This document shows positions 56,103 through 56,948 of a stretch of 64,000 nt of DNA, one piece after another; the stretch's first letter is position 1, and every line of letters starts with the position of its first letter. The stretch is taken from contig NZ_SKBU01000018.1 in NCBI RefSeq assembly GCF_004337705.1, positions 1-64,000 of the forward strand, given 5' to 3'. This DNA is from Rubrobacter taiwanensis (lineage in GTDB: Bacteria > Actinomycetota > Rubrobacteria > Rubrobacterales > Rubrobacteraceae). A model generated the notes under the pieces. That model made no database searches and was not told the origin of the DNA. It worked only from the letters and a program-made list of their open reading frames with translations. The position numbers and the translations under genes are program-made.

Positions 56103-56150
56103 AAAGAGCAAGATAAGAGAAGTCTCCGGCCGTACCCCCGATTACGCTTG
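56103..56150 (+). promoter_or_regulatory. AraC-type activator site and -10 box, copy 1
   Basis: AAAGAGCAAGATA with GAAGT following forms a 21-nt element, and TACGCT (a TAnnnT -10 box) lies 40 nt from its first base. It matches copy 2 at 56774-56821 in motif and in total length (48 nt). Located 28 nt before the cysteine-dioxygenase-like gene. No good -35 box is present, as expected for an activated promoter. Confidence 0.65.
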
Positions 56151-56178
56151 CTCCGGAACGAAGAAGAGGAGAGACAAG

Positions 56179-56742
56179 ATGAGGGTACTACTCGAGCCGG
56201 AGGCGGCAGAGTTGGAGAAGATCTCCGGGCTGCCCGTAGAGACAGCCCTACCGCGGGCCGCCCGCTTCCTGAACCGCCTGGCAGAAGACCGGGCGTTCAT
56301 CGAAGAGGAGGTCCTACCGCTCCTCCGGGAGGCGCAGGGCGCGCAGGAGGAGTGGTACGTAGCCCGCCGCTACGACGACCCGGACGGCTCCTACTCGCTG
56401 CAGCTCTTCGTCTGGCCTCCGGGAACGGGGACCAGGGTCCACGACCACTCCTCCTGGGGAGCCTACCGCTGTCTCGCCGGCACCGTGCTCGAGGAGCGCT
56501 ACGAGCGTCTCGACGACGGCTCTATCCCGGACCACGCCCGCCTGAAGCGCGCTTGGCGGCTCGATTGGGGACCGGAGCACGGAGCCTCGACCGTGCTGCC
56601 CGGGGATGGGGGGATCCACCGGGTTAGCAACCCCGGCGAGGAGGTGGCGGTCAGCGTGCACCTCTACGGGCCGAGGTTGCGGGAGGTGGACGGGCGGGAC
56701 TACGACCCCTCCCGGGACTACGTCTGCGACCGGCGAGATTGA
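56179..56742 (+). CDS. Cysteine dioxygenase-like cupin
   Basis: A 187-residue cupin resembling type I cysteine dioxygenase. The first iron motif is visible as FVWPPGTGTRVHDHSSWGAYRCLAG (two His) and the third His as GIHRVSNPGEEVAVSVHLYGP. Such iron enzymes oxidise cysteine or another thiol to a sulfinate. ATG after GAAGAGGAGAG. The gene is preceded by AraC-site copy 1 and followed by copy 2 and the exporter, so it belongs to the same regulon. Confidence 0.85.
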   Translation: MRVLLEPEAAELEKISGLPVETALPRAARFLNRLAEDRAFIEEEVLPLLREAQGAQEEWYVARRYDDPDGSYSLQLFVWPPGTGTRVHDHSSWGAYRCLAGTVLEERYERLDDGSIPDHARLKRAWRLDWGPEHGASTVLPGDGGIHRVSNPGEEVAVSVHLYGPRLREVDGRDYDPSRDYVCDRRD

Positions 56743-56773
56743 GGTCCCGATCAAAGGACCGCACCGGGCGCCG

Positions 56774-56821
56774 AAAGAGCAAGATAGAAGAAGTGCCGGC
56801 GCTGCGGTCCGGGTACGCTTG
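56774..56821 (+). promoter_or_regulatory. AraC-type activator site and -10 box, copy 2
   Basis: Same AAAGAGCAAGATA start (13 of 13 bases match copy 1), AAGT at the same offset and the same TACGCTTG end at exactly the same distance. The intervening 19-20 bases differ, which argues for selection on the two boxes rather than recent duplication. Precedes the 29-codon ORF and drrAB-like genes. Confidence 0.65.
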
Positions 56822-56858: not shown

Positions 56859-56948
56859 ATGGAGCACATCCACTCCGCAACGCTGACGGTCAGAGGCCCT
56901 GCATCGCAGCCGGAGAGGCGTGAGAGTGTCGAAGAAGGAGGGCGATGA
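56859..56948 (+). CDS. Putative 29-residue leader peptide
   Basis: ATG at 56859 with a very strong GGGGAGGAAGTG site opens a 29-codon ORF (start [13 protein letters not shown], arginine- and glutamate-rich end) whose TGA overlaps the ATG of the ABC ATPase gene (ATGA at 56945-56948). It may be a coupling leader that feeds ribosomes to the ATPase gene. The peptide itself has no recognisable homology. Its ribosome binding site is better than that of the ATPase. Confidence 0.4.

Follow-up and report, generated by a model that had tools for sequence, protein, structure and literature searches.

Genes and Promoter Elements at the Locus

We analyzed a 64,000-nt stretch of the Rubrobacter taiwanensis genome (hereafter, the window), in which genes for an AraC-family regulator, a cysteine dioxygenase (CDO)-like cupin, a DrrA-type ATPase, and a DrrB-like permease lie on the same strand (Table 1). 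The initial annotation had named these four genes, and profile matches (Pfam/TIGRFAM type) confirmed the assignments. It had also described two similar promoter elements, one upstream of the CDO-like gene and one upstream of drrA.

Table 1. Features of the regulator locus in the window
Feature	Position	Strand	Basis or remark
AraC-family regulator, 268 aa	55293–56099	+	HTH_18, 5.6e-25
Putative promoter element 1, upstream of CDO-like gene	56103–56150	+	pattern search
Predicted AraC box 1, AAAGAGCAAGATAAGAGAAGT	56103–56123	+	core GAGCAAGATA-NN-AGAAGT at 56106–56123
Predicted -10 element TACGCT	56143–56148	+	19 nt past box 1; register as in other loci
Thiol-dioxygenase-like cupin (CDO_I family), 187 aa	56179–56742	+	Pfam CDO_I, 5.5e-12
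Putative promoter element 2, upstream of drrA	56774–56821	+	pattern search
Predicted AraC box 2, AAAGAGCAAGATAGAAGAAGT	56774–56794	+	core at 56777–56794; upstream of drrA
Predicted -10 element TACGCT	56814–56819	+	19 nt past box 2; register as in other loci
DrrA-type ABC exporter ATPase, 329 aa	56945–57934	+	TIGR01188, 378.5 bits (cut-off 312.45)
ABC-2 type permease (DrrB-like), 279 aa	57931–58770	+	ABC2_membrane, 3.3e-27

The two elements were found as described. The 13-mer AAAGAGCAAGATA occurs at 56103–56115 and 56774–56786 (both + strand), AAGT at 56120–56123 and 56791–56794, and TACGCTTG begins at 56143 and 56814, with identical register and spacing at both sites. The elements are 671 bp apart and agree at 33 of their 48 positions, an agreement that was matched by only 7 of 200,000 random pairs of 48-mers from the window, some of which were overlapping pairs. 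No third site with up to two mismatches to AAAGAGCAAGATA was present in the window; shuffled sequences contained a mean of 0.20 such matches, and 2 of 100 shuffles reached two. A pattern search of the 3.03-Mb genome recovered these two sites as the only exact copies. The single one-mismatch match in the genome (C3:48587) lacked both AGARGT and a -10 element, and we regarded the further partial matches in the window and genome as chance-like.

The similarity and proximity of the elements, together with the TACGCTTG common to both, may indicate a recent local promoter duplication of no regulatory meaning. However, identity falls outside the boxes and -10 elements; the flanks and the spacer differ, which rules out a longer duplicated segment, and the same positions are kept in other genera and in another phylum. 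Since conservation is limited to the box and -10 positions, we rejected this explanation as extremely improbable. The conserved unit is an 18-bp box, GAGCAAGATNNNAGARGT, followed by a -10 element after 19 nt (N19), and AAAGAGCAAGATA is only the left part of this unit.

Conservation of the Regulator and Box in Rubrobacteraceae

Full-length orthologs of the AraC-family protein, with both of its domains, were identified in five further Rubrobacteraceae (G009, G013, G022, G001, and G062). In all six loci, the box GAGCAAGATNNNAGARGT directly follows the AraC gene on its strand, and TAnnnT is found at N19. The complete, mismatch-free element was confined to the six ortholog-bearing genomes among the 39 genomes of the family that were scanned and was absent from the remainder. 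Matches with two mismatches in G006 and G026 were rejected as chance; their flanks carried no match to the regulator.

In the six Rubrobacteraceae loci and three Chloroflexota loci, TAnnnT was at N19 or N20, and the gap between the end of the AraC match and the box was 11–116 nt. The exception was G062, in which the box lies 312 nt past the matched part of a frame-broken ortholog. This ortholog (L363, 747–1546, - strand) aligns in two frames, query residues 14–174 and then 169–250, which suggests a frameshift or an assembly error. The box and its VOC target are intact in G062 despite the broken reading frame.

Boxes in Ktedonobacteria and Other Chloroflexota

GTDB species genomes were scanned with AGCAAGATANNAGANGT-N18-20-TANNNT. 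Numerous Ktedonobacteria (Chloroflexota) were among the matches listed, carrying GAGCAAGATARGAGAAGTTTT together with a good -10 element. In five Ktedonobacterial genomes, one full-length ortholog of the regulator was found in each, except for two in Dictyobacter (E 1e-49 to 1e-54, 40–43% identity), and the next AraC-family matches covered the helix-turn-helix (HTH) region only. With up to one mismatch and no -10 requirement, these genomes contained 30, 14, 19, 4, and 13 boxes, and the reversed pattern gave 0, 0, 2, 0, and 0 matches. Sixty such sites, found without any -10 requirement, had TAnnnT at N19 in 38 cases and at N20 in 9, against approximately 0.6 per offset elsewhere. Fourteen of these 60 sites lie within open reading frames (ORFs), compared with 74% of random positions. 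Some of the sites with up to one mismatch are probably chance matches, such as L286, which has no -10 element at N19.

In a wider set of Chloroflexota, we compared 15 genomes that have the regulator with 15 that lack it: 8 of the former contained exact boxes (39 sites), and none of the latter did. The AraC-box-target layout was present in three Chloroflexota loci (G500, G426, and G596). Exact boxes were absent from five divergent relatives with the same C-terminal domain (G363, G191, G478, G510, and G636). Distant AraC proteins with this domain were also noted in L308, L309, and L310 (Actinomycetota of one genus with genomes of 8–9 Mb) and in L311; the box was not found near their genes, and these proteins may use a diverged site.

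We considered whether the box is the site of another regulator or of an alternative sigma factor, with the AraC gene as a passenger. The Ktedonobacteria examined are compatible with this explanation because no box lies within 1.5 kb of their AraC gene. However, the AraC gene and box are adjacent in two phyla and co-occur genome by genome. Moreover, the 18-bp box is followed by an ordinary TAnnnT -10 element, and both its length and its distance upstream exceed what the -35 element of a sigma factor would allow. A passenger AraC gene is, therefore, very unlikely. The adjacency, co-occurrence, and fixed -10 distance support the initial annotation in reading both elements as promoter boxes linked to the AraC gene, and the predicted link between regulator and box is well supported.

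Domains of the AraC-family Regulator

The AraC protein contains two HTH motifs within residues ~37–118. The two-HTH domain (HTH_18/HTH_AraC) was matched by all 10 aligned orthologs, which places the protein in the AraC/XylS family. Orthologs share 37–66% identity across both domains, and the HTH helices are strongly conserved between them, which is consistent with the conserved box.

The C-terminal domain (residues ~145–268) is beta-rich in an AF2 model built from three sequences only (mean pLDDT 74). It matched no Pfam family; a sub-threshold match to CarboxypepD_reg (0.049) was obtained in two of 10 orthologs. Comparison with the PDB by sequence yielded nothing convincing (best E 0.034, serine hydroxymethyltransferase), nor did Foldseek reveal a convincing fold match for this domain. 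The Foldseek matches are driven by the HTH, and we did not rely on weak matches to transthyretin, pilin, and CBM20-like beta-sandwiches.

The corresponding position in Rob and STM3175, C-terminal to the AraC HTH, is taken by a GyrI-like domain that binds ligands (PMC10414762). STM3175/YgiV and Rob share with the present protein an N-terminal AraC DNA-binding domain followed by a further domain, and an STM3175/YgiV structure (7r3w) was the best Foldseek match to our model (E 1.9e-6). However, the full-length superposition was poor (TM 0.28), and a GyrI-like domain was not detected in any of the 10 orthologs at E≤5 (Pfam), which sets the protein apart from the Rob/STM3175 type. By analogy with the ligand-binding domains of these proteins, the C-terminal domain is probably sensory. 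The phylogenetic tree separated regulators with this C-terminal domain from the remaining AraC proteins at a weakly supported fork (83/56) and grouped the Rubrobacteraceae regulators (97/98).

Predicted Regulon Targets

The initial annotation had termed the window cupin a thiol-oxidising enzyme. Its three-histidine iron ligands (H88, H90, and H147) and Ser-His-Tyr triad (S159, H161, and Y163) are present, as in cysteine dioxygenase, 3-mercaptopropionate dioxygenase (3MDO), and mercaptosuccinate dioxygenase, and the last of these is the nearest solved structure (8vni, E 9.9e-14). However, the cysteine-specific Arg60 of CDO aligns to Ala62, and Arg168 of 3MDO aligns to Gly172, with Arg173 adjacent. 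The cupin is likely to be a thiol-dioxygenase-type enzyme, with thiol oxidation as its putative activity. The exporter resembles daunorubicin-type DrrAB systems, with DrrA above its model cut-off and an ABC-2 permease partner; however, the permease scored only 64.9 bits against the drrB model (TIGR01247), far short of the cut-off of 223.05. In the interval between box 2 and drrA, we noted a 29-codon ORF (56859–56948) that has a good ribosome-binding site and extends over the drrA start. This ORF was not visible in G009, and we set it aside.

The first target after the AraC gene in the window is the CDO-like cupin. G009 has a BBE-type FAD oxidase gene at this position, and the other Rubrobacteraceae loci examined have VOC genes. 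In G009, a second box precedes contiguous CDO, drrA, and drrB genes; SGL and RibD_C genes follow these closely, and the box itself is closely preceded by VOC, AHSA1, and DoxX genes. The Chloroflexota targets are DinB in G500, VOC in G426, and in G596 an alpha/beta-hydrolase-like protein, which was named from its sequence only.

Downstream genes of the Ktedonobacterial boxes were assigned by a simple ORF rule. Their families are DinB, VOC/glyoxalase, DUF899, AHSA1, peptidase S51, alpha/beta hydrolase, metallo-beta-lactamase fold, RibD_C, SDR, TetR, MFS, SGL, epoxide hydrolase, ABM monooxygenase, PNPOx, luciferase-like monooxygenase, and DUF1801. VOC, DinB, AHSA1, SGL, RibD_C, alpha/beta hydrolase, DUF899, and epoxide hydrolase recur. 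Judging from the family names, the common theme of the targets is probably the detoxification of reactive or toxic small molecules. Boxes ahead of a TetR-type regulator gene and another AraC-family gene (L259 and L275, Ktedonobacteria) hint at a regulatory cascade. An odd target among the enzymes was noted in Ktedonobacter racemifer (L248), in which an exact box with a -10 element at N19 is followed by an RRXRR/HNH endonuclease gene, which may be a mobile insertion downstream of the promoter.

The initial annotation had predicted a dedicated response of three parts, namely, a sensor, a thiol-oxidising enzyme, and a drug efflux pump. This is a narrower form of the explanation that we prefer and does not exclude it. 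The contiguous CDO-like and drrAB genes behind one box in G009, a second genus, favor it. However, drrAB accompanies a CDO-like copy in two genomes only, at the window locus and in G009; CDO-like paralogs elsewhere in Rubrobacteraceae (60–70%) have no drrAB neighbors. As a general rule, the prediction failed because other orthologs adjoin VOC, DinB, alpha/beta-hydrolase, or BBE-type FAD oxidase genes, and the Ktedonobacterial targets are mixed. A dedicated three-part response is accordingly unlikely, and the thiol oxidase and pump represent one local outcome of a broader regulator whose targets change. Several Rubrobacteraceae carry multiple CDO-like cupins (as many as four matches, in G009; e.g., G000:C7:14799–15302; L367–L381), with copies that adjoin other cupins or SnoaL-like or methyltransferase-like genes.

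Promoter Architecture and Proposed Mechanism

With TAnnnT at N19 taken as the -10 element, the box is predicted to span approximately -49 to -32, centered near -40.5. A site of approximately 20 bp near -41 that overlaps the -35 region, with a sigma-70-like -10 element, has the expected arrangement of a class II activator site. The would-be -35 hexamers (AAGTCT, AAGTGC, and AAGTTT) are poor, and no canonical sigma-70 promoter was found in 55.1–58.9 kb of the window, which fits an activator standing in for the -35 element. RamA binds near -41 at the class II micF promoter (PMC8811837), and the placement of the box and the weak -35 suggest a similar MarA/RamA-like class II activator.

MarA, SoxS, Rob, and RamA likewise have an AraC-type double HTH and control unlinked stress genes, and the marbox at their class II promoters, such as micF, is an asymmetric box of approximately 20 bp near -41 with a poor -35 (PMC8811837). 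The present system differs from theirs in the box sequence GAGCAAGATNNNAGARGT, which keeps the same orientation at almost every site observed, in a C-terminal domain of another family, and in its hosts, which are Actinomycetota and Chloroflexota.

Alternatively, the AraC protein may be a repressor that sits on the box over the -35 and is freed by its ligand. The predicted span of the box overlaps the -35 and would be compatible with the blocking of sigma region 4. However, poor -35 hexamers and the lack of a canonical promoter imply that the promoter is weak without help, and class II activation is usual for AraC-type regulators at such a position (PMC8811837). We consider repression to be distinctly unlikely and activation to be the better explanation.

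The box, its register, its adjacency to the AraC gene, their co-occurrence, and the target families are computational observations, from which we infer binding, the monomer state, activation rather than repression, ligand sensing, and the inducer class. In this reading, both window elements would be promoters of one regulon under the adjacent AraC-family protein. This protein would bind the 18–21-bp box RAGAGCAAGATA-NN-AGARGT through its two N-terminal HTH motifs, probably as a monomer. The bound protein would take the place of the poor -35 and recruit a sigma-70-type RNA polymerase to the TAnnnT -10 element, a class II activation such as that by MarA, SoxS, and RamA at micF. The C-terminal domain, of an undescribed family, may sense the inducer. 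The window targets would be the thiol-dioxygenase-like cupin and the DrrAB-type exporter, relatives would use other enzymes, and the Ktedonobacterial regulon may comprise up to approximately 30 sites. Their common function is probably defense against reactive or toxic small molecules. Taken as a whole, we regard this reading, one AraC regulon with class II activation, C-terminal inducer sensing, and small-molecule defense, as likely.

Implications for Rubrobacteraceae and Ktedonobacteria

A search of the open-access literature found nothing relevant on the box sequence, on Ktedonobacter or Rubrobacter in connection with AraC, or on the target set. We lean toward the view that the findings describe a previously undescribed stress regulon common to Rubrobacteraceae and Ktedonobacteria, in which an AraC master regulator with a new ligand-sensing domain would control changeable detoxification enzymes and exporters through one box. 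The regulon would be local in Rubrobacteraceae and genome-wide (up to approximately 30 sites) in Ktedonobacteria.

The present results provide a predicted regulator-box pair and a list of targets for bacteria whose gene regulation is still poorly characterized. The AraC protein, the 18-bp box, and the -10 element at N19 are kept across two phyla while the targets change, which offers a natural case of regulon rewiring about a fixed, predicted binding site. Moreover, for many of the targets, the function of the family is unclear (DUF899, DinB, VOC, AHSA1, and RibD-like), and control by a shared sensor would offer a functional handle on these proteins.
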